Part shown: positions 41,249 to 59,680 of the stretch, one piece after another
Layout of the letters: each line of letters starts with the position of its first letter
Numbering within the stretch: the stretch's first letter is position 1
Source: Bradyrhizobium sp. 1(2017)
Lineage (GTDB): Bacteria; Pseudomonadota; Alphaproteobacteria; Rhizobiales; Xanthobacteraceae
Assembly (NCBI RefSeq): GCF_011602485.2
Contig: NZ_CP050022.2
Coordinates: 2,748,001 to 2,812,000 of the forward strand
Direction of reading: 5' to 3'
DNA: 64,000 nt
Translations under genes and position numbers: made by a program
The notes under the pieces: model-generated
Databases searched by the model: none
What the model was told of the DNA's origin: nothing
What the model saw: the letters and a program-made list of their open reading frames with translations, nothing else

Positions 41249-41261
41249 TCCGGCCTAAGAT

Positions 41262-41361: not shown

Positions 41362-41374
41362 GCTGCGAAGCTTC

Positions 41375-41803: not shown

Positions 41804-41993
41804 GCTGGCCTACGGTTTCCGCTTCCCGCCAATATAGGGACGCGAAGCTGCGAAATCGATAGGGTTTGGGCTCGAATCGACGATCAGAATGCTGACAACC
41901 GGCCTTCTGGTCGCTCTCCCTGCGTGGGTGGAGCCATCGCCATCGCCAGCTACTTGGCGTAGAATGGAGCGGCCCAATCGAGCATGGAGTGCA

Positions 41994-42479: not shown

Positions 42480-42542
42480 GCGTCCGCCACTGCGGAGAGC
42501 GGCGAGCCACGCGCACATCGCCGAAGCTTGCGCGGACGCGCC

Positions 42543-45258: not shown

Positions 45259-45952
45259 GAAGTCTGCAAAGGACGAAGCCGCGCCGCGCCGTCGTGGCGC
45301 CAAGGCCGCGGTCATCGATGTCGAGACCGAGCGCAACCTCGTGATGCGCGTGCTGCTGCACAGCCCCAAGGATACGCTGGCCGGCCTCGTCGCGGTCGCC
45401 GCGGTCGGTGCGATCGTTGCCAATGCGCTGTTCCTCCAGACCGGCCGGCATCCCGCGCCGATGTTCGGCACGGTGATCAATTTTCCCGCGCCGTCGTCCG
45501 CGTCGCTGTCGAATCCCTTGCCGCGTCCGCGTCCCGTCGGCGCCGACACTTCGCCCCTCGAGCCGCGCGCGACGGAGTTTCGTGCCGAGTCCAAACCCGT
45601 CGAGCGCGCCGCCGAGAAGCCGCCCGAAAAGCCCGTCGAGGCGACCGCCTCTACGCGCTCGAGCGATCCGATGACCAACCTGGTCAAGGCCACGACCTCG
45701 GCGCCGCCCTCGGCCCTGCGTCCGCCGGCGCCGATCCCGACGCAAAGCCCGGCGGCGCGACGCATCGCCGGTGTGCAGCGCGCGCTGTCCGAATATGGCT
45801 ACGGGAATCTGAAGATCTCGGGCACGATGAGCGGCGAGACCCAGGCCGCGATTCAGAAGTTCGAGCGCGAGCACAAGATGCAGGTCACCGGCCAGGTGTC
45901 CGACCGTCTGCTGCGCGAACTCGGTGCGGCGATAGGCCATCCCGTCGAATAA
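45251..45952 (+). CDS. Membrane-anchored peptidoglycan-binding domain protein
   Basis: A 233-residue protein starting at a GTG. A cytoplasmic N-terminus with basic residues (RRRGAKAAV), one membrane helix (about 42-60, LAGLVAVAAVGAIVANALF), a Pro-rich linker, and a C-terminal PG_binding_1 domain (about 170-233, AGVQRALSEYGYGNLKISGT) place it in the inner membrane with its domain in the periplasm. It overlaps the sensor kinase gene by 8 bases, so the two are translated together. This suggests a link of kinase signalling to the cell wall, which is inference. Confidence 0.82.
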   Translation: MPKKSAKDEAAPRRRGAKAAVIDVETERNLVMRVLLHSPKDTLAGLVAVAAVGAIVANALFLQTGRHPAPMFGTVINFPAPSSASLSNPLPRPRPVGADTSPLEPRATEFRAESKPVERAAEKPPEKPVEATASTRSSDPMTNLVKATTSAPPSALRPPAPIPTQSPAARRIAGVQRALSEYGYGNLKISGTMSGETQAAIQKFEREHKMQVTGQVSDRLLRELGAAIGHPVE

Positions 45953-46009
45953 TTTCCACGCGCGTGCGACGGCTGGCGCTGACTGCGCCACTGGCCTATC
46001 GTTCGATTC

Positions 46010-46354
46010 ATGCGTTTGAAATCCAACATTTGGGTGGCGGCTTATCTGCGCCGCTGCCAGACCGAGGGTGTGTTCGGCGCCGTGCGCCGCCGCGGAGCCG
46101 AGGAGGCGGGTGCAGTGTTCGTCAAGGTGTCGCTGCTCGACGGCAATGCGATGCTGTATGCGCCTGCGCCGCAGACCGTCTATGACGACGGCCGCCCCGT
46201 CGATCGACTGTTCGTGCCGGTCGCGCCGCAGCCCTTGCCGGACCACACCATTGAGGAAAGGCTGACACGGGAAATCCGCTTCGATCCGGACGCCTGGATC
46301 GTCGAGACCGAGGATCGCTCGGGCCGGCATTTTCTGGATTTGGCGAAGACATAA
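46010..46354 (+). CDS. DUF1491 family protein
   Basis: A 114-residue protein of the DUF1491 family: LKSNIWVAAYLRRCQTEGVF at the start, GAVFVKVSLLDGNAMLYAP in the middle and RFDPDAWIVETEDRSGRHFL near the end. It is common in alphaproteobacteria and of unknown function. It is 57 bases after the peptidoglycan-binding gene and may belong to the kinase operon. Confidence 0.85.
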   Translation: MRLKSNIWVAAYLRRCQTEGVFGAVRRRGAEEAGAVFVKVSLLDGNAMLYAPAPQTVYDDGRPVDRLFVPVAPQPLPDHTIEERLTREIRFDPDAWIVETEDRSGRHFLDLAKT

Positions 46355-46411
46355 CTGCTTCTACCGCCATTGCGAGCGCGTTGTGCTCAACGTTAGCGCC
46401 GACGCGAGAAA

Positions 46412-47386
46412 TCAGCGATCCGACGAGCCGGTGACGGTGCGCACGGCCGGGCTCGAGCCGGGCTGCACGCCCGGTCGCGTCTGGCTTGCGCCGGTACGTG
46501 CGCGCTGGCGTTCGCCGTCATGCAGCGAGGACTGATACTTCGCGCGGGTGACGGCGAGCGTCGAGCCGCGCCAGGCTGCCAGCATCACCAGTGCGGAACG
46601 ATCGTCGAGGCGGTCATAGAGCCGTGACAGCCGGTACACGTCGTTCACGGAGGTGCCGATCTCCGGCTTGAAGAACAAGAGGATGCGCTGGAACACCGGA
46701 CTCGGCATATCGAGCGTGCGCGCGGCGACCGCGAGTGCCTCGCCGCCGGCATCGTCGACGATCTGGGCCGCGACGCGCGAGGGGAGGATCAGGCTGTCGC
46801 CGAGCTCGAAGGTGAAGTTCTCGACATCGCGCGCGAGCGCCGCCATCTCCAGGATCTGGATCGCGCGCTTGGCGCGCACGGTCGGAATCTGCGGCGCGGC
46901 CTTCAGGGGTGTCTGCGCCAGATTGTGCAGGATCAGCGCGCGCTCGGAGGCACCGGCGCGGAAGAACATGTCGTGGATCTCGGCGGCGTCCTTCGGCTGC
47001 ATCGCCATGTTCGCGGCCATGCGCTGCTCGGCCTCGGTGGGCGCGCGGGCCGGGGCGGGCGCGGGCGGCGGCGTTGGAATCTCGCGCGCCAGCGGCACCC
47101 TGCGGCCTTCCTGGGTCGCGACCAGCCCGAGCTTCTGGAGGATCGGGATGGGCGTCGACGGATAGGTCGCAAGCCGCGCCTTGACGGCGGCGCGCGTCGC
47201 GTCGTCGACCTGGTCGATCAATCGGGTGGCAAGCTCGACGAATTGCCGCTGTTCGTCGTCGTTGTGGACGCGGGTCTGGACGTAGAGGTCGGTCAGCACA
47301 CGCAGCAGCGTGGGGCGAACATCGACGCCTTCGCGACGGGACAGGGTCATCAACCCGTCGAATCCGGGAAACAGCGACTTGGTCAT
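46412..47386 (-). CDS. DUF2336 domain-containing protein
   Basis: A 324-residue helical protein of the DUF2336 type. The N-terminus (ADLYVQTR-like LTDLYVQTRVHNDDEQRQFV) and central repeats match the family; the middle has a Pro/Ala-rich linker (about 100-120), and the C-terminal tail is basic and low in structure. It lies downstream of a perfect CtrA-type box (47441-47455), which suggests cell-cycle control. No catalytic residues are known. A second family member is at 9295-10395. Confidence 0.8.
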   Translation of the reverse strand: MTKSLFPGFDGLMTLSRREGVDVRPTLLRVLTDLYVQTRVHNDDEQRQFVELATRLIDQVDDATRAAVKARLATYPSTPIPILQKLGLVATQEGRRVPLAREIPTPPPAPAPARAPTEAEQRMAANMAMQPKDAAEIHDMFFRAGASERALILHNLAQTPLKAAPQIPTVRAKRAIQILEMAALARDVENFTFELGDSLILPSRVAAQIVDDAGGEALAVAARTLDMPSPVFQRILLFFKPEIGTSVNDVYRLSRLYDRLDDRSALVMLAAWRGSTLAVTRAKYQSSLHDGERQRARTGASQTRPGVQPGSSPAVRTVTGSSDR

Positions 47387-47641
47387 GGAGAGATACGCGA
47401 CCTGGAAGAGATACTCCCCGGCAACCTATCGCAGGGTCCTTTAAAGCCTCGTTAAGGAAAACGAGGCGTGAAGTTGATCCCTAAAATTAAGGTGTTGTCG
47501 TGCCGCAACGGGACACCGCGCCCGCGCCCGTGCGGCTACGGTCCGGAAGGGGCGTTTACATCCCGTTAACCATGAACTGATCTTAATGCATGCATGTTGC
47601 ATGAATGCGTTCGGTCGCGCGGCAATTGATAGAGAGCTGAT
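47387..47641. promoter_or_regulatory. Divergent region with CtrA-type boxes
   Basis: These 255 bases separate the DUF2336 and small-protein genes. The box TTAA-AGCCTCG-TTAA at 47441-47455 fits the CtrA consensus TTAA-N7-TTAA exactly, 55 bases upstream of the DUF2336 start. A TTAACCAT half-site lies near 47566-47573. A GCATGCATG/GCATGAATGC-type dyad lies just before the small gene. No coding frame was seen. Confidence 0.6.
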
Positions 47642-47830
47642 ATGGGGACCATCATCGAATTTCCGGCCGGTCGCCGGGCAGGCTCGTCGGGGGATGCCAC
47701 GCCGCGCACGGAAACGGGAACGATCGTGATTCTCCCGGTGATCCGTATCGAGCGCGAGGCGGATGAAACCAGCGGCGATCGGGGGCCGGAGCAGGGCACA
47801 GCGCCGGGGCGCCGTCGTCGCCGTCGTTAG
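47642..47830 (+). CDS. Small basic-tailed protein, unknown function
   Basis: A 62-residue protein. It starts MGTIIEFPAGRRA, has TGTIVILPVIRIER in the centre and ends in a run of arginines (RRRRRR). I recall similar short proteins in Bradyrhizobium with the same start and Arg-rich end, which supports a real gene. It begins downstream of the CtrA-box region and 15 bases before the lipoprotein gene. Function unknown; the Arg tail could bind nucleic acid. Confidence 0.6.
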   Translation: MGTIIEFPAGRRAGSSGDATPRTETGTIVILPVIRIEREADETSGDRGPEQGTAPGRRRRRR

Positions 47831-47845
47831 CAACCGGCTTTTGCG

Positions 47846-48607
47846 ATGCCGGAAAACCTCCGCCAGATCCGGCCTTTTATATCGGCCGTCCTGCTCGCGC
47901 TGATGGGTGCGACGCTCGGCGCCTGCAGCGGCGGCGATTTCGGCCGCACCCGCGCCGACATGCGCAGCGACGACATGCATCGCTGGCTGGGCGCGGAGGT
48001 CACCGCCAGCGTCGGCCTGAGGCCCTCGCAATTCCAGCTCACCGACGAAGAACGTCAGCTCCGCGACCTCGCCTATCCCATGATCGAGCCGCCGCTGTCG
48101 CGCCCCGCCTGGAAGAGCGTGTTCGGCGACTACAAGGCAATGCCATCGCCCTGGCGGCAGAAGATCGTGTTCGACCGCACCATGTACGGACGCACGCTGA
48201 TCGACGAGCCACACCGCTCGCATTCCTCGCGCTATGCGCAGCTGATCGAGGACGTGCGCAACGACATCACCCGCTTCGAGCCGTTCTTCGCCTCTGCGAT
48301 CCGCGTCATCGATCTCGACAGGAAGCGCGATGCCAGCATGACGCGCGTCTCTTCCCTCTCGCCGCGGGAGAGGGATGACGCGGTCGCGCGCATGCAGGAG
48401 AACTCGCTGATCGTGCAGTGGGTGCAGCAGTGCCTGGAGCAGCGCGTCTCGTCCTATCGCTGGGCGCTGGAGCGCCTGGTGATCCAGGCCCCCGACGGCA
48501 TGGCCGCCGACGCCGATCGCCTGATCGGCGAGCTCGCCGCCCAGACCGCCAACCCGCCGGTCGCGGGGCAGCCGCCTTACGGCCGGGCGGTCATTTCGAA
48601 GGGCTGA
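47846..48607 (+). CDS. Lipoprotein of unknown function
   Basis: A 253-residue lipoprotein: signal peptide with lipobox LGAC (Cys27), then SGGDFGRTRADMRSDDMHRW. The rest is mostly helical and rich in Arg/Gln. No family is assigned. The segment VSSLSPRERDD (about 168-178) is encoded by a palindrome of the repeat family B type (48353-48375), so part of the protein may be repeat-derived. Its 3' end overlaps the convergent hydrolase gene by 17 bases. It is 15 bases after the small gene at 47642. Confidence 0.72.
   Translation: MPENLRQIRPFISAVLLALMGATLGACSGGDFGRTRADMRSDDMHRWLGAEVTASVGLRPSQFQLTDEERQLRDLAYPMIEPPLSRPAWKSVFGDYKAMPSPWRQKIVFDRTMYGRTLIDEPHRSHSSRYAQLIEDVRNDITRFEPFFASAIRVIDLDRKRDASMTRVSSLSPRERDDAVARMQENSLIVQWVQQCLEQRVSSYRWALERLVIQAPDGMAADADRLIGELAAQTANPPVAGQPPYGRAVISKG
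48353..48375. repeat. Family B-like palindrome inside a coding sequence
   Basis: TCCCTCTC (48353-48360) and GAGAGGGA (48368-48375) are perfect arms inside the lipoprotein gene. The wording resembles the CCTCTCC/GGAGAGG hairpins at 21687-21887 and stays in frame. Confidence 0.5.
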
Positions 48608-49595
48608 CCTGCGGCAACTGCTTCGGCATCGCGCGTTCGAGAAACGCGAACAGCCTGCGCTCGGAGTCCTCGGTGACGTCCTTGCGGAAATGATATTCGA
48701 CGCGTCGGCCGCGAAAATCGATCTTGCTCAAGCCATCGAGCTGCTGGCAATCCCAGCAATGCGTCGCACCGGGATAGAGGTGCCACTCGACGGGCCGAGC
48801 GTCCCGTTTGAGAGCGTCGAGCTTGTCGATGCAGTCCGGCGCGGGCGTCTCGGTGTCCGCATCGCCCATCAGCACGAGAAGAGGTTGTGCGACATCCGAG
48901 TTGACGATGTCGAAGGGCGGTCGTCCGTTCGGCGGCGTCACACGGAAGCAGCCCGGATAGAAGCTGGCGACCGCGGCGAATCCCTTGTCGAACTTCAACG
49001 CGCTGACCGTGTGGGAGCTGGCCGCCATCAATCCGACCATCGCGCCCCAGGAAAAGCCGACCAGCGCGACGCGGTTCTTGTCGACATAGGCTTGCCGGCG
49101 CAGATGCACTGCGGCCTGCATTGCATCTTTTGCGCCGCGAAAAAAGTTCACGCCGTTCTTCGGACCGAAGCAGACGCTCTTGACGTCCCGTGGCCCAAGG
49201 CTGTCGAGGAGCAGGACGACGTAGCCGCGCGTGACGGCTCTGCGCGCCCAGGCCGCGACGGCGGGATTCAGTCCCGCGCACTGGTGCAGGAGCGCGATGG
49301 CCGGGAACGGGCCGGCGCCATCAGGCTTGAGCAGCGCCATGCGGGCTGCGGTAAATTGGTCGATGCTCTCGGCTACATCGGGAAGAACAAGGTCGGACGC
49401 AATTGTTGCTCCGCGGTAGATCGCCTCGGCCTCCCAGACCAGAGGAGTCCATTGCGGCCCGCCCTGCGCGGCGGCCCCGCCGGTACTCCAGTCTGCGAGC
49501 GATCCCGCAACGAGCGCCGCGAGCGCGCCAAAGCGCCATCGCTCCAGGGGCTTCAGGAAGCGGTGCTTGGCGCAGCGGCTAATCCTATTGGGCAT
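48591..49595 (-). CDS. Exported dienelactone hydrolase-like alpha/beta hydrolase
   Basis: A 334-residue alpha/beta hydrolase with a long N-terminal signal region (FGALAALVAGSLADWSTGGA, ending near AAAQG). The nucleophile is Ser in VGFSWGAM; a likely acid is in LLVLMGDADTETP and the His in GATHCWDCQ. A CAGLNP motif near PAIALLHQCAG is typical of the dienelactone hydrolase type. It should hydrolyse an ester or lactone outside the cytoplasm; the substrate is unknown. It is convergent with and overlaps the lipoprotein gene by 17 bases and diverges from the CHAT gene over 91 bases. Confidence 0.85.
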   Translation of the reverse strand: MPNRISRCAKHRFLKPLERWRFGALAALVAGSLADWSTGGAAAQGGPQWTPLVWEAEAIYRGATIASDLVLPDVAESIDQFTAARMALLKPDGAGPFPAIALLHQCAGLNPAVAAWARRAVTRGYVVLLLDSLGPRDVKSVCFGPKNGVNFFRGAKDAMQAAVHLRRQAYVDKNRVALVGFSWGAMVGLMAASSHTVSALKFDKGFAAVASFYPGCFRVTPPNGRPPFDIVNSDVAQPLLVLMGDADTETPAPDCIDKLDALKRDARPVEWHLYPGATHCWDCQQLDGLSKIDFRGRRVEYHFRKDVTEDSERRLFAFLERAMPKQLPQVSPSK

Positions 49596-49686
49596 ATCCC
49601 CGACCCTGATTGGCGCTTGTTCTTCGCCGCTATATCGATAGGATCATCTGGTTGCACCAAGTCATTTTTTTTTAAGGAATTTTGGG

Positions 49687-52600
49687 ATGAGCTCAGATTC
49701 CGGGACTCCATTTGAATCCGCTCCGATTTTTTCACCACCGCGAATGCTGCTGGCATTTGCCTTCCTGCTGGGATCGGCTAGCTCCGCTGCCGCGCTGACC
49801 AAGGAAGCGGCGATTGAAAATTGCCGAATGTCCGTCGGCAAGCCGATCGTACAGGCCTGCATGCGCGCTGGTGGAGGGCACGCCGGCGGCGCCAATCTGG
49901 AAGCTTGCCGCGCTCAAGCCTCTCCCAAGGTCAGGGCCTGCGTGATCGCGGCGCTCAATGCCGCCAACGGCCGCGCCAATGTCGCCGTCGAAATACCGAA
50001 GGAGGCGGCGCCAAAGCTCGATCCGGGCACCGCGCTGCCGAAGGATTTCGTCGCGCCGCCGCGCAACATCTCCGACATCACGGCCATTCTCGACGGCGAG
50101 AAGCCCGATGAGAAGCTGATTGCCGAGCTCAAGGCGGATGCCGATGCCGCACCGACGGGCAAGGAGTCGCGCCAGGATCTCGCTCGATTCTACTTCGATC
50201 GCGCCAATGCGCGCTCGCAGCTCGGCCGGCTCGCCGATTCGATCGCCGACGCCGACAAGGCGGTGGAGGTCGGCCGCGGAGCCGTCAGCCCGAACATGCT
50301 GGGGCGCCTGATGCAGCTGCAGTCGGTGCAGTATTCGCTGGCCGGCGATCCCAAGCGCGCGCTGGAGATCGTGCAAAGACTGTTGCGCGACGCGGCCAAT
50401 ACGCCGGGCGCGAAGGGCTACGTGTTCAATGCCAACCGTGCGATTGCGTCCATCCTGCTGCAGATGGGCGATGTCGCACAGGCCGAAGCCTATCTCCGTC
50501 GCAGCCTGACCGCGATCCAGGAGGCGCGCACCAGCGGGTTTCCGGGATGGCGCACCACCTATCCGAAGGTGGGCCAGAGCTGGGAAGGCGAGATCGAGAT
50601 GTCCCGCGCTCAGATCTTCGAGGCGCGGGGCCAGTTCGCCGAAGCCGAGGCCGCCTATCGCGCCGCCGAGATGCGCAAGCGCGCCGGCAACAAGGGGGTT
50701 CTGGAGCTGCCTAATCCGCCTGCCGAGACGCTGCTGCTCCAGGTTGTCGACGGCAACATCCTGAGCCAGGCGCGCATGAAGGCGCGGCAGGGACGGCTCG
50801 CCGAAGCCGAGGTCGACGCGCGCCGGGCGCTGCTGGCGCGGCTGAGGGACACCGGCAAGTACAATCCGGTGACGCCGCGTTACGTGATGGGGCTGGCCGG
50901 TATTCTCGTCGATCAGGGTCGCTACGCGGAGGCCGAGCAGCTCGGTCGCGTCGCCCTCGACATCAGCAAGACCGTCGGCGTGCCCGACGACTCGCAGCCG
51001 ACCGTGCAGTTGCTGTCGCAGCTCGCCGGAATTCTCAGCCTTCAGCGCAAGAATGCCGAAGCCAACGCCATGTTCGCGCGGATCGACCAGGCGATCGCGA
51101 AGTGGGAGCCGCAGCGCCGCCAGGTCTTCGAGCTCAATCCGTCGCGCATTCTTGCGCTCTACAACTCCGGACAGCTGGACGCCGGCATTGCGGCGGCCGA
51201 GCAGCTCGTCAAGAAGCAGGTCGGGCGCGTCGGCGAAAACCATTTCGATGCGGCCTCCGCGCGCGGCACGTTGGCCGTCGGTCTGATGCGGGCACGGCGC
51301 GATGCCGATGCGATCCGCGAGTTCAAGGCTGCCATCCCGGTCATGATGGCGAGCGCGAACGAGAACGCGGACGATGAGAACACCAGCGTGGTGGCCGCGC
51401 GCAGCCAGCGGCTGCAGACCATTGTCGAGAGCTATCTCGCGCTGCTGGCGCGGGCTGAGGGAACCGGCAGCGGCGTTGGCGAGGAGACCTTCGGCCTCGC
51501 CGATGCCGTCCGCGGCCGTTCGGTGCAGCAGGCGTTGGCCGCTTCGAGCGCGCGCGCGGCGGCAAAGGATCCGGCGCTCGCCGAGCTCGTGCGCAAGGCG
51601 CAGGATCTGACCAAGCAGGTCAACGCCCAGCTCGGCACGCTCAACAATGTGCTCGCGCTTCCGGCGGCGGAACGCGACGAGAAAGCCGTTGCACAAATCC
51701 AGGCCTCGATTGCCGCCTTGCGCGGCCAGAGCGACAAGGCGCGCCAGGAGATCAAGCAGAAATTCCCGATCTACGCCGATCTAGTCTCGCCCAAGCCGCC
51801 GAGCGTGGCCGAGATTCGCGCGACGCTGGCCGACGGCGAGGCCATGTTGTCGTTCTATTTCGGTCAGAACGGCAGCTTCGTCTGGGCCGTGCCGAAGTCG
51901 GGACCGGTGGCGTTCGCCGCCGTCCCGGCGAAGATCGGCGACCTCGAGACCAAGATCCGCAAGCTTCGCGAGGCGCTCGAGCCGCAGGCCGCGATGATTT
52001 CGGACATCCCGCCCTTCGACCTCAAGCTTGGCTACGAGCTCTATGAGCTGCTGCTCAAGCCGGTCGAGAGCGGCTGGAAGCCGGCCAAGAACCTGATCGT
52101 CGTGACCAACGGCGCGCTGGGACTGTTGCCGCTGTCGCTGTTGCCGACGGCGCCGGCAGAGGTGGCCGCGGACGAGGATCCGCTCTTCATCGGCTATCGC
52201 AACGTGCCGTGGCTGGCACGCACGCATGCCGTGTCGACGGTGCCGTCGGCGGCGGCGTTGCGGACGCTGCGGCAGTTGCCGCCGGGCAAGCCCGGCCGCG
52301 GCGACCTCGTCGCCTTCGGCGATCCCTATTTCAATACGGATCAGCAGGCGGAGGCTGAAACGGGCGACGCCAAGGTTGAGGTGGCCGATGCCGGTGGCGG
52401 CAACGTCACGCGCGGCATGCCGCTGAAGCGGCGCAACAGCCCGAAGCTGGAAGGCGTCGACAGCGCCGAGCTCGGCCTCTTGCCCCGCCTGCCCGATACC
52501 GCGGACGAGCTCAAATCGATCGCGCTGGCACTGCAGGCCGATCCCTCGAAAGTGTTGTTCCTCGGCAAGAGCGCGACGGAGAGCGCGGTGAAAACCATGA

Positions 52601-53109
52601 ATCTCTCCGGCTTCAGGATTTTGGCCTTTGCCACCCATGGTCTTGTCCCCGGCGAGCTCAACGGGCTGACGCAGCCGGCGCTGGCGCTGTCGTCGCCGGC
52701 GGTGACGGGCGAGGGCGGTGACGGCCTCCTGACGATGGAAGAGATCCTGGGCCTCAAGCTGGACGCGGACTGGGTCATCCTGTCGGCCTGCAACACCGGT
52801 GCGGGTGCCGGCGCGGGGGCCGAGGCGGCATCCGGGCTCGGCCGCGCGTTCTTCTACGCCGGAACGCGCGCGCTGCTGGTGACGAACTGGTCGGTGCATT
52901 CGCAGTCGGCACGGCAGCTGGTGACCGACCTGTTCAAGCGGCAGGCCGACGATCCGAAGCTGTCGCGCGCCGAAGCGCTGCGCCAGGCGTCGATGGCCCT
53001 GGTTGATGGCCCCGGCTATCTCAACAGCGAAGGCAAGACCGAGTTCGCCTATGCGCATCCGCTGTTCTGGGCGCCATACACGATCATCGGCGATGGCGGC
53101 TTGCGCTGA
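49687..53109 (+). CDS. Exported TPR-CHAT (caspase-like) peptidase
   Basis: A 1140-residue protein. A signal peptide (best read from the internal MLLAFAFLLG, ending near SAAALT, residues 20-37) is followed by two cysteine pairs (C46/C58 and C74/C85), each spaced 11 or 12 apart as in disulfide-stapled helical hairpins. About 145-640 are TPR-like helical repeats (AEAYLRRSLTAIQEA, YAEAEQLGRVALDI). A coiled coil covers about 625-700. The C-terminal CHAT domain (about 830-1140) keeps the dyad His984 (FATHGLVPG) and Cys1035 (LSACNTG). CHAT peptidases are caspase-like; some act in cell death with gasdermins. No gasdermin is seen. It leads a four-gene run and is probably periplasmic. Confidence 0.88.
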   Translation: MSSDSGTPFESAPIFSPPRMLLAFAFLLGSASSAAALTKEAAIENCRMSVGKPIVQACMRAGGGHAGGANLEACRAQASPKVRACVIAALNAANGRANVAVEIPKEAAPKLDPGTALPKDFVAPPRNISDITAILDGEKPDEKLIAELKADADAAPTGKESRQDLARFYFDRANARSQLGRLADSIADADKAVEVGRGAVSPNMLGRLMQLQSVQYSLAGDPKRALEIVQRLLRDAANTPGAKGYVFNANRAIASILLQMGDVAQAEAYLRRSLTAIQEARTSGFPGWRTTYPKVGQSWEGEIEMSRAQIFEARGQFAEAEAAYRAAEMRKRAGNKGVLELPNPPAETLLLQVVDGNILSQARMKARQGRLAEAEVDARRALLARLRDTGKYNPVTPRYVMGLAGILVDQGRYAEAEQLGRVALDISKTVGVPDDSQPTVQLLSQLAGILSLQRKNAEANAMFARIDQAIAKWEPQRRQVFELNPSRILALYNSGQLDAGIAAAEQLVKKQVGRVGENHFDAASARGTLAVGLMRARRDADAIREFKAAIPVMMASANENADDENTSVVAARSQRLQTIVESYLALLARAEGTGSGVGEETFGLADAVRGRSVQQALAASSARAAAKDPALAELVRKAQDLTKQVNAQLGTLNNVLALPAAERDEKAVAQIQASIAALRGQSDKARQEIKQKFPIYADLVSPKPPSVAEIRATLADGEAMLSFYFGQNGSFVWAVPKSGPVAFAAVPAKIGDLETKIRKLREALEPQAAMISDIPPFDLKLGYELYELLLKPVESGWKPAKNLIVVTNGALGLLPLSLLPTAPAEVAADEDPLFIGYRNVPWLARTHAVSTVPSAAALRTLRQLPPGKPGRGDLVAFGDPYFNTDQQAEAETGDAKVEVADAGGGNVTRGMPLKRRNSPKLEGVDSAELGLLPRLPDTADELKSIALALQADPSKVLFLGKSATESAVKTMNLSGFRILAFATHGLVPGELNGLTQPALALSSPAVTGEGGDGLLTMEEILGLKLDADWVILSACNTGAGAGAGAEAASGLGRAFFYAGTRALLVTNWSVHSQSARQLVTDLFKRQADDPKLSRAEALRQASMALVDGPGYLNSEGKTEFAYAHPLFWAPYTIIGDGGLR

Positions 53110-53139
53110 CGGACAGTCGAGGGGAAGGGGGGACGGAAA

Positions 53140-53583
53140 ATGAAGCGGAATGTCTTGGTGGGTCTCGTGGCCGCAAGTTTGTGGTTCGCGGGACCATCGC
53201 GCGCCGTGCCATTGATCACGGAAGAGGAGGCCAGGCTGCCGCCTCCGAAGGGCGCGGTCGCCGTCGACCAGCGCGGCATCATGCGCGGCCCCAAGGTCGA
53301 GTTCGTCTCGCCGGGCGCCTCGGCGAGTTCGCCTCTGCCGCTGGTCCTGAAATTCCAGTCCTATGGCGGGGCGAAGATCGATCTGGACTCGGTCAGGATG
53401 ATCTTCCTCCGGACGCCGAATGTCGACCTGACATCGCGCGTCAAACCCTTCGTGAAGGCCGATGGCATCAACATGCAGGACGCGGAGCTGCCGCCCGGCG
53501 AATACACGGTGCGCGTCGACATCAAGGACAGTGATGGCCGGTCGGGCACGGCCATCTTTACGCTGAAGGTCGCGCCCAAGTGA
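53140..53583 (+). CDS. Small exported beta-rich protein in the CHAT operon
   Basis: A 147-residue protein with a clear signal peptide (ending near PSRAVP) and a strong GGGGGA-type ribosome site. The mature part has the acidic ITEEEARLPPPKG then a beta-rich domain ending PPGEYTVRVDIKDSDGRSGT, resembling an Ig-like or carboxypeptidase-regulatory-like fold. No cysteines occur in the mature protein. It lies 30 bases after the CHAT gene and overlaps the next gene by four bases (GTGA). A role as partner, substrate or inhibitor of the CHAT peptidase is possible; nothing in the sequence decides this. It was not recognised as a known family. Confidence 0.78.
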   Translation: MKRNVLVGLVAASLWFAGPSRAVPLITEEEARLPPPKGAVAVDQRGIMRGPKVEFVSPGASASSPLPLVLKFQSYGGAKIDLDSVRMIFLRTPNVDLTSRVKPFVKADGINMQDAELPPGEYTVRVDIKDSDGRSGTAIFTLKVAPK

Positions 53584-53777
53584 CGTGCCCTTACTGCCGG
53601 TCCGGGACTGCTGAGGGTGCGCTGGTTTGTGCGTCTTGCGGGCGTGACATCGCCGTTCCCGCAACGCTGATTGCGGAGCGCGACGATCTCCTGCGCAAGC
53701 GTGAGGCGCTGCGGGATGAACTGCGGCGGGCCAGAGACGAGGTCGAAGCCATCATGATGCGAAGGAAGTCGCGCTAG
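53580..53777 (+). CDS. Small zinc-ribbon coiled-coil protein
   Basis: A 65-residue protein starting at GTG. A zinc ribbon (CPYC at 3-6 and CASC at 17-20) is followed by a charged helix (ERDDLLRKREALRDELRRAR) likely to be a coiled coil. It has no signal peptide, so it is cytoplasmic. The start overlaps the previous stop by four bases, and the next gene starts 2 bases after its stop. Its ribbon has the same Cys spacing as the ribbon of the following gene, suggesting duplication or pairing. Function unknown. Confidence 0.78.
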   Translation: MTCPYCRSGTAEGALVCASCGRDIAVPATLIAERDDLLRKREALRDELRRARDEVEAIMMRRKSR

Positions 53778-53779
53778 CG

Positions 53780-54544
53780 ATGGAATGTCCGTTCTGTGCC
53801 GAGACGATCAAGGACGAGGCCATCGCTTGCAAGCATTGCTCGCGGGATTTGCGCGTCGTGCGGCCGACACTTCTCGAGATTGACGAGATCGTCGCCGATC
53901 TGGACAAGCTCAGGCGCGATCTCGATCGCGTCAATGTCCGCCTCGAGCGCTACAACAATCCGCTGCGCTATTACGCAACGCATGCGGTGCTCTACGTTGC
54001 CATCCCATCCTTGTTGCTGGTGATCGCGCATGTGCTCGTGACCATCACCTTCAACGTGTCCTCGATTCCGCTTCGAATTGCATCGATCCTCATCCCGCTG
54101 CTGTTCGGGTTCTTGGCCTATCCGCTGCATCGGGTCTCCGCCCTGACGGCATTGGTGCTGGCGTTCCTGACGGCCAGCGTCAGCATCCTGGCGATGCTGA
54201 CGGTGACCGGGATCCACGATCACGTGCCGATCCTGCCGACGGTCTGGATCGAATGGCGTGAGGTGCTCGAATTCGGCGCGAGCATCCTGCTCGCCTTCGT
54301 CTCCGGAAACATTTTCAGCGTCGTGATCTTCCAGATCCTGCCGCGGGTGCTGAGCCAGGGCGGCAAGCCAAATGCGTTCGCCTTCCGCGTGGCGCGCTTG
54401 CTGGGGCAGCATGTCGGCGACGAACAGCTGCGCCGCCGCGCCCGCTTGATCCAGGACTTGATGCAGACCGTCGGGCCGCTCGCAGGCGTCGCCGCAACCG
54501 CCGTCGGCTCGATCTACGCGGGATTGAAGGGGATGCTCGGGTAA
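53780..54544 (+). CDS. Zinc-ribbon multi-pass membrane protein
   Basis: A 254-residue protein. The N-terminal zinc ribbon (CPFC at 3-6, CKHC at 17-20) is followed by a coiled coil (about 30-58, EIVADLDKLRRDLDRVNVRL) and about four membrane helices (67-90, 96-116, 120-142, 163-187). A basic C-terminal region follows, with a possible short hydrophobic stretch near 230-250. It thus carries a cytoplasmic ribbon on a membrane anchor. It begins 2 bases after the preceding ribbon gene, with GAAGGAAG as ribosome site, and is the last gene of the CHAT operon. No family name is recognised. Confidence 0.8.
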   Translation: MECPFCAETIKDEAIACKHCSRDLRVVRPTLLEIDEIVADLDKLRRDLDRVNVRLERYNNPLRYYATHAVLYVAIPSLLLVIAHVLVTITFNVSSIPLRIASILIPLLFGFLAYPLHRVSALTALVLAFLTASVSILAMLTVTGIHDHVPILPTVWIEWREVLEFGASILLAFVSGNIFSVVIFQILPRVLSQGGKPNAFAFRVARLLGQHVGDEQLRRRARLIQDLMQTVGPLAGVAATAVGSIYAGLKGMLG

Positions 54545-54589
54545 CGATGTCTGGCGCGGCCCCCGAGCGGGCAGGCACGCGCGCGTTTG

Positions 54590-54997
54590 CTATGGCTGCG
54601 GGGGATAGCGCTCGAACGTCGGCAGTTCATGCGCATGCTCCATCCAGCGCAGGCGCTCGGCGACCTGGATGTGCATCGTCGCAGGGACCGCCTCTGGATC
54701 GTCATAGGTCGCGCTCTGGATGTCGATGACTCCCGGCAGCAGGCTGTCATTGACGTAGAACAGGCCGGTTCCGCAATTGCTGCAAAACTGCCGCCTGCCG
54801 TGTTCGGAGGAGTTGTAGACCTTGGGTTCGCCCTTCGTCACCTTGAGGGCATCGCCGGGATACATCGTCCAGCCGACCACCGGTGCGCCGGCGTGAAGCC
54901 GGCAATCGCGGCAATGGCACAGCGCGTGCACGATCGCATCGCCCTCGACCTCGTAACGGATTGCGCCGCAGTGACAGCCGCCGGCGATGGTGCTCAT
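54590..54997 (-). CDS. GFA family protein
   Basis: A 135-residue GFA-fold zinc protein. Ligand motifs are GGCHCGAIRY, LCHCRDCRLHAGAP and FCSNCGTGLFYV. The ATG at 54997 is preceded by a strong GGGAGGAG site. Substrate unknown, as for most of the family. It is convergent with the CHAT operon and is separate from the arsC gene upstream by 127 bases. A second GFA gene is at 26619-27083, but the two differ in sequence. Confidence 0.9.
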   Translation of the reverse strand: MSTIAGGCHCGAIRYEVEGDAIVHALCHCRDCRLHAGAPVVGWTMYPGDALKVTKGEPKVYNSSEHGRRQFCSNCGTGLFYVNDSLLPGVIDIQSATYDDPEAVPATMHIQVAERLRWMEHAHELPTFERYPPQP

Positions 54998-55124
54998 GCG
55001 CTCCTCCCGATTGAAGGTCATCCTCGGCCGATCGATAGCGCCCGCGGCTTGCAGCATCAATGGCGCAATCGACTTGCGATTGCGTCCTACTGTCGCGTGA
55101 CAGCTGCTGCCATCGCGGCCACGT

Positions 55125-55526
55125 CTACCGCGCTTCCACCACCTCGCCGTCCTCCTTGACGAAGCGGCCGACGGGACGATCGAGGAGATCGAGCACCGCT
55201 TCCGAGGGGCGGCACAAGCGTGTGCCCTTTGCTGTCACCACGATTGGGCGATTGATCAGGATGGGGTGCGCGAGCATCTGGTCGATCAGCTCGTCGTCGG
55301 ACCATTTGGGGTCATCGAGGCCGAGGTCGCGAAACGGCGTGCCCTTCTCCCGCAGCAGGGCGCGAACGGAAATCCCCATGGCCGCGATGAGCTCGACCAG
55401 CTTTTCGCGGGACGGCGGCGTCTTCAGATATTCGATGACGTCAGGCTCGACGCCGCTCTGCCGGATCATCGCGAGCGTGTTGCGCGAGGTGCCGCAGGCT
55501 GGGTTGTGATAGATCGTGACGCTCAT
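55125..55526 (-). CDS. arsC: Arsenate reductase (glutaredoxin-coupled)
   Basis: A 133-residue ArsC of the glutaredoxin type. The catalytic Cys is C11 in YHNPACGTSRNT, and the downstream arginines lie in ILINRPIVVTAKGTRLCRPS. It reduces arsenate to arsenite with glutathione and glutaredoxin. Its start overlaps the aquaporin gene stop by four bases. Arsenite formed could leave through the aquaporin AqpS, as described for Sinorhizobium. The ArsR gene upstream is the likely regulator. Confidence 0.95.
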   Translation of the reverse strand: MSVTIYHNPACGTSRNTLAMIRQSGVEPDVIEYLKTPPSREKLVELIAAMGISVRALLREKGTPFRDLGLDDPKWSDDELIDQMLAHPILINRPIVVTAKGTRLCRPSEAVLDLLDRPVGRFVKEDGEVVEAR

Positions 55527-56224
55527 CGATGTGTCTCCGCGATTGGAACCGGGACGCGCGTCTCGGCGCGTCCCAACAGCCAGTTCATCAGCAACATGCC
55601 GGCAAACGCGCCAAGAAGCTCGGCAAGGATGAAGCCAGGCAGGTCAGTGGGGCGAATGCCGGCAAAGGTGTTCGTCAGCGACCTCGCAATCGCCACGGCC
55701 GGATTGGCGAACGAGGTCGATGCCGTAAACCAATAGGCCGCCGTGATGTAAAGGCCCACCAGCCAGGGCACCGCCGTTCGTTGGAAGCGGACGCCGGCCA
55801 GGATCGTCGCGATCAGCCCGAAGGCGGCGACGGCTTCAGCGAACCATTGCGGCCCACCCGTTCGAACCTTGGTCGAGAATTCGAGCAGGGGCGATCCGAA
55901 CATCAGATGCGCCGCCATCGTTCCCGCGATGCCGCCGAGGATCTGCGCGACGACGTAGAGCGCAGCTTCGTTCACTGGCAGTTCGCGCCTGGCGGTGAAG
56001 ACCAGAGTGACCGCCGGATTGAAGTGTGCGCGGGAGATCGGACCGAGCACCGTGATCAGGACGACCAGAATGGCTCCGGTCGGCAACGTATTGCAGAGCA
56101 GCGCAAGAGCGACGTCCCTGGTCAGCGTTTCCGCCATGATGCCGGAGCCGACCACGGTGGCGACGAGAATGCCCGTGCCGAGCGCTTCGGCCGCGACGCG
56201 CCGCGGGACGTCGAAATTGTCCAT
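55523..56224 (-). CDS. aqpS: MIP/aquaporin channel (AqpS-like)
   Basis: A 233-residue major intrinsic protein with six helices. The two channel motifs are HFNPAVT and FANPAVA; the second lacks the Arg that follows NPA in water channels (Ala and Ile here). In Sinorhizobium meliloti AqpS replaces ArsB and lets arsenite flow out after ArsC reduction. The same arrangement, arsR-aqpS-arsC, is seen here, so arsenite permeation is the best inference. It is 27 bases downstream of an ArsR gene and overlaps arsC by four bases. Confidence 0.92.
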   Translation of the reverse strand: MDNFDVPRRVAAEALGTGILVATVVGSGIMAETLTRDVALALLCNTLPTGAILVVLITVLGPISRAHFNPAVTLVFTARRELPVNEAALYVVAQILGGIAGTMAAHLMFGSPLLEFSTKVRTGGPQWFAEAVAAFGLIATILAGVRFQRTAVPWLVGLYITAAYWFTASTSFANPAVAIARSLTNTFAGIRPTDLPGFILAELLGAFAGMLLMNWLLGRAETRVPVPIAETHR

Positions 56225-56251
56225 CAGCCGACCCTCCGAGCTGATAGCCGA

Positions 56252-56614
56252 TCAGGCACGGCTTCGTTCCTTTCGCTTCGGCGCGCAGCAGGATTGCAGT
56301 GTCTCGACGACAGGTTCGCAGACCTCCGGCCGTCCGCCGCAGCAATCGCGCAGCAGGAAGACTGCAACGTCGCGAAATTCCGTGAGACCGGCGCGGTAGA
56401 CGATCGAGCGGCCATGCCGCACGGAAGACACCAGCCCCGCGCGGCTCAGGATCGCGAGATGCGCCGAGAGCGTGTTCTGGGGCACTTCCAGCAGGCGGGC
56501 GAGGTCGCCTGCCGCAAGGCCGTCGGGCTCGTGCCGGACCAGCGTCCGGAAGGCCTCCAGACGGGTCGATTGCGACAGCGCCGCGAGCGCCAGGACGGCT
56601 TCATCGATTTCCAT
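56252..56614 (-). CDS. arsR: ArsR family regulator (first copy)
   Basis: A 120-residue winged-helix repressor. The helix-turn-helix is LARLLEVPQNTLSAHLAILS. The C-terminus has cysteines C91, C92 and C99 (RDCCGGRPEVCEP) and a further C109/C110 pair, consistent with C-terminal arsenite binding as in AfArsR-type proteins. It is divergent from the second ArsR gene over a 117-base region with palindromes. It probably represses aqpS-arsC until arsenite binds. Confidence 0.92.
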   Translation of the reverse strand: MEIDEAVLALAALSQSTRLEAFRTLVRHEPDGLAAGDLARLLEVPQNTLSAHLAILSRAGLVSSVRHGRSIVYRAGLTEFRDVAVFLLRDCCGGRPEVCEPVVETLQSCCAPKRKERSRA

Positions 56615-56668
56615 ATATCCAGATTTATGGAATAATAAGCTGTGCGTCAACCCGAATTCGCTTCGCCA

Positions 56669-56692
56669 ATATTTCGAATATTCTAGAAATAT
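56669..56692. promoter_or_regulatory. Putative ArsR operator between divergent arsR genes
   Basis: ATATTTC (56669-56675) and GAAATAT (56686-56692) are perfect arms around GAATATTC, itself a palindrome (56676-56683). The nonamer ATTCTAGAA at 56680-56688 recurs at 57074-57082. A further CCATA/TATGG dyad overlaps the start of the first arsR (56611-56630). Confidence 0.6.
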
Positions 56693-56731
56693 GGTTGACT
56701 GTCGGCGCGAACGAGAACATGGTTTCCAGCC

Positions 56732-57049
56732 ATGAGGATCGATGACGCAGCGGCACGCTTGGAAGCTCTGGGCAACCGGACACGCCTCCAGATCTATCGC
56801 GCCCTGGTTCGCGCGGGGCGTTCGGGCATGCCCGTGGGCCGCTTGCAGGACAAGCTGAAGATCCCGGCCTCGACGCTGTCGCATCACATCAAGACGTTGG
56901 TCTCAGTCGGGCTCGTCAGCCAGGTCCGAGAATCCACGACGCTCGTCTGCCATGCGAACTACGACGCGATGCAGGGCCTGGTGGATTTCCTCGCTTCGGA
57001 GTGCTGTGCGGACGAAGTCGGATGCAAGGATACGCAAACGGCCGCCTGA
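56732..57049 (+). CDS. arsR: ArsR family regulator (second copy)
   Basis: A 105-residue ArsR. The helix-turn-helix is LQDKLKIPASTLSHHIKTLV. C91, C92 and C98 (SECCADEVGCKD) have the same C-C-x5-C spacing as the arsenite site of Acidithiobacillus ArsR (from memory). It begins 117 bases from the divergent first arsR and 49 bases before the flavoprotein gene, with a second operator-like site in between. The two ArsR paralogues differ clearly in sequence, so they may control the two arms separately. Confidence 0.92.
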   Translation: MRIDDAAARLEALGNRTRLQIYRALVRAGRSGMPVGRLQDKLKIPASTLSHHIKTLVSVGLVSQVRESTTLVCHANYDAMQGLVDFLASECCADEVGCKDTQTAA

Positions 57050-57073
57050 CTTTCCGGGCCATATTATTCGATG

Positions 57074-57082
57074 ATTCTAGAA
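57074..57082 (+). promoter_or_regulatory. Second operator-like site before the flavoprotein gene
   Basis: ATTCTAGAA at 57074-57082, within an AT-rich ATATTATTCGATGATTCTAG context, repeats the core of the site at 56680-56688. It lies 17 bases before the ATG at 57099, so a bound repressor could also block translation-coupled expression. Confidence 0.5.
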
Positions 57083-57098
57083 GGATGGGAGAAGTCGG

Positions 57099-58463
57099 AT
57101 GGACAAGAAAAAGGTGGCGATCATCGGGGCAGGGCCCGTCGGTCTCGCGGCGGCCGCGCACGTTCTCGAACGCGGCATGTCTCCCATCGTGCTCGAGGCT
57201 GGACCCGAGCCAGCCCACGCGATCCGGCAGTGGCAGCACGTGCAGCTGTTCTCGCCGTGGGAATACAATGTCGACAAGGCAGCGGCGCGCCTGCTCGCGC
57301 CGACGGGGTGGAATTCGCCGGACCCGAGCTCCTACCCCACCGGCGACGAGCTGATCGAGCGCTACCTCGAGCCGCTCGCGACTCGAACGAAGCTGCGCGA
57401 GGTGATCCGGACGTCCAGTCGCGTCACCGCGATCAGCCGCGCCGGCTTCGACAAGGCGAAGACCAGGGGGCGGGAGCAGGCGCCATTCGAAATCCGCTAC
57501 CAGAACGGTAAAGGCCCCGAGATGCTGCGTGCCGATGCAGTCATCGACGTGTCAGGCACGTGGTTCTCTCCCAATTCCGCGGGAGGCAATGGTCTGTCCG
57601 CAATCGGCGAGGGCGAACGCGCCGGCCATATCGCCTATGGCATGCCGGATGTGCGAGGTGCCGTCCGCGCCAGATATGCCGGGAAGACCGTTGCCGTGCT
57701 GGGCGCCGGCCATTCCGCCGTGGGCACGCTGATCGATCTCGTGCAACTCGCGGACGAGGCGCCCGGCACGCAACCCGTCTGGCTGCTGCGCGGCGCCGAT
57801 CCTGCCAAGGCTTTCGGCGGCGGCCGCAACGACAAGCTCGCTGCCCGTGGTGAGCTGGGAAGTGCTTTCGCAGCGCTCGTTGCCGCCGGGAAGATCAAGG
57901 TCGAGACCCAATTCGTTGTCACTCACCTCTCGGACTCCGAAGGTCGCCTCAAGATCGCCGCCGGCGCCTGCTGCGGCGCGCGGAGCGTGATCGTGGACGA
58001 ACTGATCGTGTCGACGGGCTTTCGTCCCGACCTCTCCTTCCTGTCCGAACTGCGCCTGCGGCTCGACCCTGCCATCGAGGCGCCCGTCGCGCTGGCGCCT
58101 CTGATCGATCCCAACGAGCACAGCTGCGGGACCGTGCGTCCGCACGGCGCCCGCGAGCTCGCGCATGATGAACCGGGCTTCTACGTGGCCGGCATGAAGT
58201 CGTATGGTCGCGCGCCGACCTTCCTCATGATGACCGGCTACGAGCAGGTCCGCTCGATCGCCGCCGACATCGCCGGCGACAAGGAGGCCGCGGCGAGGGT
58301 CGAGCTCGTGCTGCCGGAGACCGGCGTCTGCACGCGAGGCGGCCTCGAGACTGCTGCCACGTCGGGATGCTGCGGCGGTCCGGCCAAGGACGATTCATCC
58401 GCCTGCTGCGCGACCGACGAAGCGGCGAAGAGGTCGGGCGCCTCGGGGTGTGGTTGTTCATGA
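57099..58463 (+). CDS. arsO: ArsO-like FAD-dependent monooxygenase with Cys-rich tail
   Basis: A 454-residue flavoprotein. The FAD-binding motif is IIGAGPVGLAAAAH (8-21) and the NAD(P)H-binding VLGAGHSAVGTL lies in the middle. It is homologous to the putative flavin monooxygenases called ArsO in arsenic islands; the reaction is not established. The C-terminal 35 residues carry CC and C motifs (SGCCGGPAK, SACCATDE, SGCGCS), which look like a thiol metal-binding tail. It shares the arsR operator region and overlaps the next MFS gene by four bases. Confidence 0.82.
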   Translation: MDKKKVAIIGAGPVGLAAAAHVLERGMSPIVLEAGPEPAHAIRQWQHVQLFSPWEYNVDKAAARLLAPTGWNSPDPSSYPTGDELIERYLEPLATRTKLREVIRTSSRVTAISRAGFDKAKTRGREQAPFEIRYQNGKGPEMLRADAVIDVSGTWFSPNSAGGNGLSAIGEGERAGHIAYGMPDVRGAVRARYAGKTVAVLGAGHSAVGTLIDLVQLADEAPGTQPVWLLRGADPAKAFGGGRNDKLAARGELGSAFAALVAAGKIKVETQFVVTHLSDSEGRLKIAAGACCGARSVIVDELIVSTGFRPDLSFLSELRLRLDPAIEAPVALAPLIDPNEHSCGTVRPHGARELAHDEPGFYVAGMKSYGRAPTFLMMTGYEQVRSIAADIAGDKEAAARVELVLPETGVCTRGGLETAATSGCCGGPAKDDSSACCATDEAAKRSGASGCGCS

Positions 58464-59680
58464 GGCAGGCTCTTCCGGGCCTAGCTGCCGGCTCTCTCGC
58501 CGTCATCGTTGGCCTTGGCACCGCGCAAACCATTGCGTGGGCGTCGAGTTATTATCTCCCCGCCGTCCTCGCCGCTCCGATTGCGCGGGATCTCGATCTC
58601 GCGCCGACTTACGTGTTCGCGGCGCTGTCGGGTGCGCTCGTTCTCTCCGGACTTCTCGGGCCGCGTGTCGGTCATGCGATCGACCGGTTTGGGGGGCGCT
58701 ACCTGCTCGCGGCGTCGAATGCTGTCTTCGCCGCGGGCTTGCTGCTGCTGTCATGGGCCCATGGCGCGGGGCTGCTGGTCGCCGCGTGGATGATGCTCGG
58801 GCTCGCCATGGGCATGGGGCTCTATGAGGCGGCATTCGCGACGCTGACCCGGATCTATGGCACGGGCGCTCGAAAGCCGATCACCGGCATCACGCTGATC
58901 GCTGGCTTTGCAAGCACCGTCGGCTGGCCGCTCACGATGTGGCTCGATGCCGAGTATGGCTGGCGCGCCGCCTGCCAGATATGGTCGGTCATCCATGTCT
59001 GCCTCGCCTTGCCGCTCAATCTCTCGCTGCCGCGCGCGACGCCGCTGGATCAGGCCGCGCCGCCGGTTGCCGGCGCGAGCCCGCATTCCGAACGCCAGAG
59101 CGAGAGCTTTGCGATGGGCGTGTTGGCCTATATGTTTGCGGCAGCCGGCTTCGTCAGCTCGGGTGTTTCGGCGATTCTGCCGTCGATGCTGGTCGCGTTC
59201 GGAGCGACGCCGGCTCAAGCTTTGCTCGCAGGGACATTGGTCGGTCCTGCGCAGGTCGGGGCGCGTCTCCTCGAAGCGGGCTTCCTCGGTCGATTCCACC
59301 CGCTGTTGTCGGCGAGGCTCGCCATGCTCATGAACCCGATAGGCGTCGTCACGCTGATTGCGGGAGGATCATTCTTCGCGCCGGTTTTCGCTGTCCTCTA
59401 CGGAGCCGGCAACGGGATCATCACGATCGCACGCGGAACGCTGCCGTTGGCATTGTTTGGACCGGTGGGGTTCGGGAAACGTGTCGGCATGATTTCGCTC
59501 CCGTCCCGGCTGACGGGGGCGGCCGCGCCATTGGTGCTGGGTCTGATGGTCGAGCACTTCGGCCGAGGCGCGCTGTGGATCTGCGCTCTTGCCTCGGTCT
59601 CCGCGTTCGTCGCGCTGCTGCTGCTTCATGCGGACCCTGCGCCGTCGACGCGCCTGCAGACGGGAGGTCAGAATTCGTAA
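58460..59680 (+). CDS. MFS transporter (first of a tandem pair)
   Basis: A 406-residue major facilitator with about 12 helices. The loop after helix 2 contains GHAIDRFGGRYLLAAS, a version of the A-motif. It overlaps the flavoprotein gene by four bases and therefore is translated with it. Its position suggests export of an arsenic species made or bound by the flavoprotein, but no known arsenic MFS signature (ArsJ, ArsP) is evident. The C-terminal tail is short. Confidence 0.85.
   Translation: MRQALPGLAAGSLAVIVGLGTAQTIAWASSYYLPAVLAAPIARDLDLAPTYVFAALSGALVLSGLLGPRVGHAIDRFGGRYLLAASNAVFAAGLLLLSWAHGAGLLVAAWMMLGLAMGMGLYEAAFATLTRIYGTGARKPITGITLIAGFASTVGWPLTMWLDAEYGWRAACQIWSVIHVCLALPLNLSLPRATPLDQAAPPVAGASPHSERQSESFAMGVLAYMFAAAGFVSSGVSAILPSMLVAFGATPAQALLAGTLVGPAQVGARLLEAGFLGRFHPLLSARLAMLMNPIGVVTLIAGGSFFAPVFAVLYGAGNGIITIARGTLPLALFGPVGFGKRVGMISLPSRLTGAAAPLVLGLMVEHFGRGALWICALASVSAFVALLLLHADPAPSTRLQTGGQNS
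59662..59675 (+). promoter_or_regulatory. Ribosome site pointing to an ATT start for the second MFS gene
   Basis: GGGAGG at 59662-59667 is 5 bases before an in-frame ATT at 59673. The nearest ATG in frame (59709) and GTG (59706) have no such site. The ribosome site overlaps the last codons of the previous gene. Confidence 0.4.

Follow-up and report, generated by a model that had tools for sequence, protein, structure and literature searches.

We analysed a stretch of 64,000 nucleotides (G000:C1:2748001-2812000, here called the window), part of the 7.86 Mb single-contig genome of Bradyrhizobium sp. 1(2017), and precisely the operon in it which encodes a predicted exported TPR-CHAT peptidase, a small predicted exported protein (IG) and two proteins with a four-Cys ribbon (RIB1 and RIB2). 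The association of IG and RIB2 with caspase-fold peptidases is well supported, and we give an even chance to the reading that there is a conserved envelope module acting as a proteolytic switch, of which this locus represents one form; the envelope mechanism and the role, either in stress or in defence, are what we infer. A reading made from the sequence alone had described a four-gene TPR-CHAT system. The association stood, and the description turned out too narrow, because TPR-CHAT is one of at least two peptidase families in the peptidase position: we considered as the module the constant IG and RIB2 (usually with RIB1), together with a variable exported CHAT or Peptidase_C14 (C14) protein, often carrying TPR or Sel1 repeats.

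Neighbourhood of IG and RIB2

The scan of genome contigs with RIB2 gave 148 stretches and 89 relatives, of which the best 80 were kept, corresponding to 76 distinct loci, mostly of Bradyrhizobium and Afipia. These loci were searched by tblastn with the operon parts of the window. IG was present in 76/76 loci and CHAT in 71/76, on the same strand and upstream of IG; the neighbourhood is therefore conserved far beyond close strains, a point on which the sequence-only reading had made itself depend. A match to RIB1 was obtained in 76/76 loci, the one of L113 being RIB2 itself, hence a separate RIB1 is present in 75/76. In L113 the order CHAT-IG-RIB2 is kept, with identity to the window down to 40% (RIB2) and 42% (IG). 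Two loci (L057 and L082) are cut off by the contig start, and some copies are damaged: the CHAT frame is broken in L090, RIB2 is shortened in L108 and L115 and split in L119, and L114 lies at a contig end. Tandem TPR-CHAT copies, two in number, were seen upstream of IG in L094 and L104. One locus labelled Frankia sp. RB7 (L054, JAUEPE010000001.1) has a typical Bradyrhizobium operon with flank genes of 88-89% identity, and it is probably mislabelled or contaminated.

The five loci lacking CHAT (L087, L089, L106, L107 and L119) all carry a Peptidase_C14 gene beside the IG/RIB partners, and none of the 76 loci has neither CHAT nor C14. At these five loci the C14 proteins have a hydrophobic N-terminus; five of the proteins (L087, two of L106, L107 and L119) were scanned with Pfam and gave E values < = 1.5e-33, and the C14 of L089 was found by our private profile in L214, a stretch whose contig is as long as that of L089. 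The L087 protein, encoded on the opposite strand, has a Cys-hairpin and TPR start like the window peptidase and a C14 end instead of CHAT. The two C14 genes of L106 are in tandem, and the gene order in L107 is IG-RIB2-C14-RIB1. The Pfam family PF00656 (Peptidase_C14) is carried by the replacing proteins in L087, L106, L107, L119, L139, L146, L221, L222 and L227, and the window peptidase has no match to it at E < = 1.

We placed the CHAT or C14 label on the 46 rows of a quick RIB2 tree, in which near-identical core rows were thinned and which gives no direction of change. Four changes of label are needed, at least two of them forced by starred branches; L087 and L089 fall inside a starred group of 36 rows, the remaining 34 being all CHAT. 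Since the CHAT-less loci carry C14 and the RIB2 tree requires these changes, the peptidase family has been exchanged while the IG/RIB partners stayed.

A search with the IG alignment, on genomes of the genus which partly overlap the 76 RIB2 loci (so that the counts are not additive), found 75 places in 68/195 genomes, own genome included. The 74 places outside the window were scanned over about 7 kb per side, where contigs allowed. With private profiles we obtained 63 places with CHAT, IG, RIB1 and RIB2 (64 with the window), four with C14, IG, RIB1 and RIB2, and two with C14 and IG. Pfam added two C14 places, L221 (a 1283-aa protein, E 3.9e-10) and L222 (a weak IG with a C14-DUF4384 protein, E 3.8e-16), so that in total 72/75 IG genes (64 with CHAT and 8 with C14) lie at most about 7 kb from a caspase-fold peptidase. 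The private C14 profile missed the divergent C14 of L140, L142, L144, L221 and L222, which Pfam detected; hence a miss by this profile alone is no proof of absence.

C14 is a common family here: the own genome has 17 matches (some being fragments), G063 and the five genomes lacking CHAT have 6-20, and in those five a C14 would lie within 8 kb by chance in about 2-5% of cases. Eight of the 11 CHAT-less IG places have a C14; the binomial probability for at least 7/11 is 1.5e-8 assuming independence, which is only partly true. Three adjacent C14 fragments of the own genome (G000:C1:5231260-5231936) are apparently a broken caspase gene.

The operon of the window and its products

The operon consists of four open reading frames (ORFs) on the + strand, with gaps of 30, -4 and +2 bases, and its features are the following.

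49687..53109, + strand: TPR-CHAT peptidase of 1140 aa, predicted exported (ORF, Pfam, alignment, model), with a hydrophobic signal segment at about 20-36, a CX11C...CX10C helical hairpin at 46-85, TPR at about 121-600 and CHAT at 781-1136
49822..49941, + strand: four-Cys hairpin of the peptidase (Cys46, 58, 74, 85), from the CX11C...CX10C spacing and the 69-sequence alignment
53140..53583, + strand: IG, 147 aa, small, predicted exported, with an N-terminal ITEEEA...RGIMRGP stretch followed by an Ig/PKD/CopC-like beta-sandwich
53272..53292, + strand: Arg segment of IG, R45-G-I-M-R49-G-P, proposed peptidase contact
53580..53777, + strand: RIB1, 65 aa, GTG start, four-Cys ribbon and charged helix
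53780..54544, + strand: RIB2, membrane protein of 254 aa, with an N-terminal four-Cys ribbon, a coiled-coil-like stretch and 4-5 hydrophobic segments

The ORFs and the alignment agree with the strand, the gaps and the His984/Cys1035 dyad that had been claimed for these genes. Signal peptides had been claimed too for the first two products, in which hydrophobic N-terminal segments indeed precede the conserved parts; an exported peptidase with a membrane partner is the arrangement predicted here.

Residues 781-1136 of the peptidase match CHAT (Pfam PF12770, 2.3e-50, 172 bits versus a cut-off of 24), with TPR repeats upstream, and we considered the protein a member of the CHAT family on the basis of both this score, over the curated cut-off, and the dyad. 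In an alignment of 69 CHAT sequences, window included, from which loci with truncated or absent CHAT were excluded, H984 is conserved in 68/69 and C1035 in 69/69, the only miss being L114, a contig-end copy from a metagenome-assembled genome whose reading frame is apparently disturbed. The window protein contains five Cys, namely 46, 58, 74, 85 and the catalytic 1035; the four N-terminal ones are kept in 67-68/69 sequences and their spacing in 65/69, and a single Cys, the catalytic one, is found beyond residue 121 in 64/69. Such a Cys-poor body, together with the four-Cys helical hairpin and the hydrophobic N-terminus, fits what would be expected of a secreted protein with two disulfides. The CHAT relative of L138 has a lipobox-like LVGC start. 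The ratio of nonsynonymous to synonymous substitution rates (dN/dS) of the CHAT gene is 0.03-0.24 in the 7 pairs tested, corresponding to purifying selection; positive selection was not seen, dN/dS being < 1 in each of four regions in these pairs. The structural model of the whole protein has an overall predicted local distance difference test (pLDDT) score of 69, and its top match among solved structures is human separase (9hn0, E 3.8e-9); Csx29 is absent among the 50 structure matches listed. Paralogous TPR-CHAT proteins, 54-59% identical, were seen in L149 (G063:C94), L150 (G036:C1) and L151 (G021:C1), where profiles found no IG or RIB; the paralogues of L149 and L150 are preceded by the gene of a small exported protein containing GHCQSACTMFL, perhaps a different partner.

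The TPR region is variable. Among 69 CHAT proteins we distinguished 55 of type A, 12 of type B and two others. Pairs of A and B (636) have identities of 32-39% in TPR and 69-87% in CHAT, and the outlying L113 compared with type A has 47-52% and 64-67%, respectively; because these identities conflict, a single steady pace of change is excluded. The CHAT tree allows type B to be a single clade (approximately unbiased test, p-AU 0.17; 35/69 rows used), and RIB2 rejects this (p-AU 2.9e-6; 28 rows), both tests being made on quick trees with groups picked after the identities were known. A single acquisition of the type-B TPR, which fits the CHAT tree, was hence rejected on RIB2. From this conflict it follows that a transfer between operons may have taken place, either of the complete TPR-CHAT gene or of RIB2, and the sequences suggest that it was the peptidase gene. 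L115 represents a separate replacement or remodelling. Between the window and L065 the synonymous divergence (dS) is 0.15 in TPR and 0.54 in CHAT, as after recombination.

For IG the model has a pLDDT of 84 and is a beta-sandwich resembling CopC and PKD domains; its confidence falls at residues 41-50, where the Arg segment lies. Among strong IGs, 84/86 carry R-[GA]-[IV]-x-R-[GAS]-P (the misses being L113 and L221), and among weak IGs 0/9 do. IG matched none of the inhibitor families of Pfam, the matches at E < = 1 being only weak ones to Y_Y_Y and He_PIG, and on this basis it was not assigned to the chagasin-type family of cysteine-peptidase inhibitors. RIB1 is similar to the N-terminal part of RIB2, and the ribbons of the two have the spacing C3-x2-C6-x10-C17-x2-C20, identical as had been claimed; the four Cys of RIB2 are invariant in 17/17 aligned sequences, and its ribbon presumably lies in the cytoplasm. 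Since Pfam matches the ribbons only weakly (E 0.0017 and 0.0049, below the curated cut-offs), the name zinc ribbon is based mainly on the four-Cys pattern; the Pfam Ig-like matches to IG are weak as well, so the ribbon and Ig-like names are taken from pattern and model.

Upstream of the operon (46412-48607) there are a DUF2336 gene and a gene for a lipoprotein-like protein of 253 aa (47846-48607). The flanks vary among the 76 loci: the 253-aa gene is near the operon in 40/76, the DUF2336 gene in 39/76 and a DLH gene in 9/76, and of the five flanking genes tested none is kept in more than 40/76. A scan for promoters and terminators gave no signal above chance.

Occurrence beyond the genus

RIB2 was found in 28/120 relatives, counting the own genome, and every one of them belongs to the own genus; G024 has a weak match and G052 a remnant. 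In 289 genomes of the class, IG matched seven besides the own one, the two best being G361 (a CHAT locus) and G360 (a C14 locus), both with RIB parts. The RIB2 search of the class found the own genome, G361 and G360 only, the match of G361 being the ribbon part at a contig end. G360 belongs to another alphaproteobacterial family and has, genome-wide, one C14 and no CHAT match, the lone C14 being beside IG and RIB2. The search of 299 genomes of the phylum added one genome, G913, whose RIB2 (276 aa) is identical to that of Limnohabitans radicicola, a betaproteobacterium. Its stretch L227 contains IG, RIB2, a C14, a second IG and a divergent C14, both C14 having signal-like starts; these are the only two C14 matches of the genome, where CHAT matches are zero. 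Compared with the window, its IG is 36% and its RIB2 25% identical.

IG together with RIB2 and an exported CHAT or C14 protein was therefore found in the window, in 76/76 RIB2 loci, and in L139, L217, L218 and L227, and a partial form in L138 (ribbon part only, contig end) and L221 (RIB2 relative without ribbon). Neither the 72,556 plasmid records nor the 50,697 phage records searched gave a match to RIB2, and on this ground plasmid or phage cargo was rejected.

We did not count the weak IGs as module, because they lack the Arg segment and no RIB2 was seen adjoining them, except in L227. In two genomes of one genus (G398 and G512), with two C14 matches each, the weak IG is about 5 kb from an exported trypsin-C14-DUF4384 fusion (L140:12944-15874 and L144:12823-15513). 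In G376 the weak IG belongs to a same-strand run (L142:8747-15772) that also encodes lipoprotein-like products and two TPR proteins, one with trypsin and one with C14; a comparable run was seen in L143, and in L143 and L145 the peptidases are trypsin-like only. In L222 the weak IG is beside the C14-DUF4384 gene. Near the weak IGs of L141 (contig end) and L148 no peptidase was found. IG-like proteins in the wider sense thus also accompany exported trypsins. The second, weak IG of the Limnohabitans stretch (L227:7877-8323) adjoins a C14-DUF4384 protein (L227:8811-10466) beside the main module, and perhaps, as L222 and this gene would indicate, there is an IG subfamily going with C14-DUF4384.

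Proposed mechanism and comparison with known systems

In the mechanism that we propose, the peptidase would be active in the periplasm, held by its two disulfides, and its repeat region would sense an envelope signal. Once active it would bind IG at its Arg-rich N-terminal segment, and most likely cut it there; in this altered state IG would be read in the inner membrane by RIB2, which with RIB1 would relay the event to the cytoplasm via its ribbon/coiled-coil face. More tentatively, and at somewhat less than even chances, we propose an envelope caspase-type pathway of Alpha- and Betaproteobacteria in which CHAT and C14 share one dedicated output, made up of an Ig-like periplasmic protein, recognised by its constant Arg segment, and of a membrane transducer with a zinc ribbon, the peptidase and repeat-sensor parts being interchangeable. 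The proposed recognition of Arg fits orthocaspases, which cleave after positively charged residues (PMC6426788). It also fits separase, which cleaves after Arg.

Several observations weigh against the switch. No peptidase was found at 3/75 IG places of the genus, namely L148 (a weak IG) and L147 and L220, which share a neighbourhood with FrsA-like and porin genes and no peptidase among the genes scanned. No caspase was found at two of the seven non-own IGs of the class, G420 (trypsin-like genes only) and G440 (contig end). RIB2 is present in just 7/249 genomes of the order (own included), all of the own genus, corresponding to a patchy spread. L113 is without a separate RIB1 and the RIB2 relative of L221 is without ribbon. 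Weak IGs devoid of the Arg segment are also near C14 or trypsin genes, so that the segment is not required for every pairing. The RIB2 tree was built quickly, and long branches are flagged in it (L221, L139, L113 and L119). As for the CHAT model, it is poor near the dyad (pLDDT < 50 at 982-997 and 1033-1050), and its separase match is loose (TM-score 0.29, about 11% identity).

We weighed the alternatives on the same data. IG could be a resident inhibitor, forming with the peptidase a pair released by an envelope signal. In such a pair the active site would be occupied by the Arg segment, a pseudosubstrate comparable to securin in the case of separase, or else the peptidase would be blocked by the Ig fold, in the manner of chagasin-type inhibitors. 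The persistence of a small Ig-like exported partner across a change of peptidase family, the weak IGs near exported C14 and trypsin genes, the Arg segment, and separase as top solved fold all speak for it. We nevertheless consider it unlikely, given that IG matches no Pfam inhibitor family, that a pseudosubstrate for both CHAT and C14 would need to be very general, and that RIB2 would have no role. No more probable is antiphage or inter-bacterial defence, in which an envelope trigger would unleash the peptidase and the cell be killed or arrested. Such a role would agree with the patchy presence (68/195 genomes of the genus for IG), with a TPR region divergent versus a conserved CHAT and the type-B clade conflict, as in a receptor-like exchange, and with the service of CHAT and caspase domains in known conflict systems; however, the four operon proteins have no PADLOC match, RIB2 is absent from the plasmid and phage records, the 253-aa upstream gene is near in 40/76 loci, the dN/dS of CHAT is low in the 7 pairs, and no killing effector was recognisable among the genes scanned.

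Slightly less probable still is that the peptidase serves to mature a wall component or a protein that is exported or on the surface, IG being a chaperone or adaptor and RIB2 an anchor, with no signalling. Weak peptidoglycan-binding matches, under the cut-off, in two C14 partners, and domains of extracytoplasmic type (Sel1 repeats in L139 and a weak LprI match in L221) would suit a maturation of this kind, which on the other hand leaves the two putatively cytoplasmic ribbons purposeless and for which no steady substrate gene was seen, because no flanking gene tested exceeds 40/76 loci. Finally, the CHAT protein could be cytoplasmic and its N-terminal segment merely a hydrophobic stretch, as the 19 residues that the annotated start of the window gene places ahead of the hydrophobic part would allow. 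We regard this as very improbable in view of the Cys make-up, the export signal of IG, the lipobox-like start in L138 and the replacement of CHAT by C14 proteins with signal-like starts.

The switch, if real, would mean that caspase-type regulation acts in the periplasm too. The roles of bacterial caspases outside CRISPR and gasdermin systems are largely open, and IG and RIB2, which stay constant when the peptidase family is swapped, stand out as companions of exported caspases. The Arg segment offers a short, defined segment for the question of substrate versus inhibitor, and genomes with one or two C14 genes would offer clean genetics. The data point to a proteolytic switch of the bacterial envelope that had not been described before: a description of the module was not found in the open-licence literature searched, nor in the available parts of PMC3501461, PMC8195603 and PMC7159879, and for the CHAT domain in Bradyrhizobium nothing was found in the open-licence literature.

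Among known systems, the peptidase is like Craspase (type III-E CRISPR, Csx29 with Cas7-11) in having TPR repeats followed by a CHAT peptidase, but Csx29 partners the RNA-guided Cas7-11, whereas the window peptidase has an export signal and Ig-like and ribbon partners. Membership of Craspase or type III-E was rejected, as was a bacterial gasdermin system, since Pfam found no Cas family and no gasdermin in 12 flanking genes (39787-59680, not every ORF of the region) and PADLOC no match for the four operon proteins; the sequence-only reading had likewise noted no Cas7-11 or gasdermin partner. Like the caspase-dependent conflict systems (gasdermin, EACC1-type and others), the module would put a caspase-fold peptidase under the control of a partner protein; unlike in them, no gasdermin or EACC1 partner is among the genes scanned, and with the NCBIfam EACC1-caspase model, whose cut-off is 140 bits, the C14 protein of L087 reaches 58 bits and that of L106 54 bits. 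With separase the modelled protein seems to share helical repeats and a C-terminal domain of caspase fold, a resemblance of fold only; separase is eukaryotic and nuclear, about 11% identical and without IG/RIB partners. The module is also like the prokaryotic metacaspases or orthocaspases (Peptidase_C14), in that C14 proteins replace CHAT in it. The available part of a survey of C14 (PMC3501461) makes no mention of CHAT, ribbons or an Ig-like partner, with the word zinc absent from its main text; it describes N-terminal segments that are possibly signal peptides, as well as numerous operons whose function is unknown.

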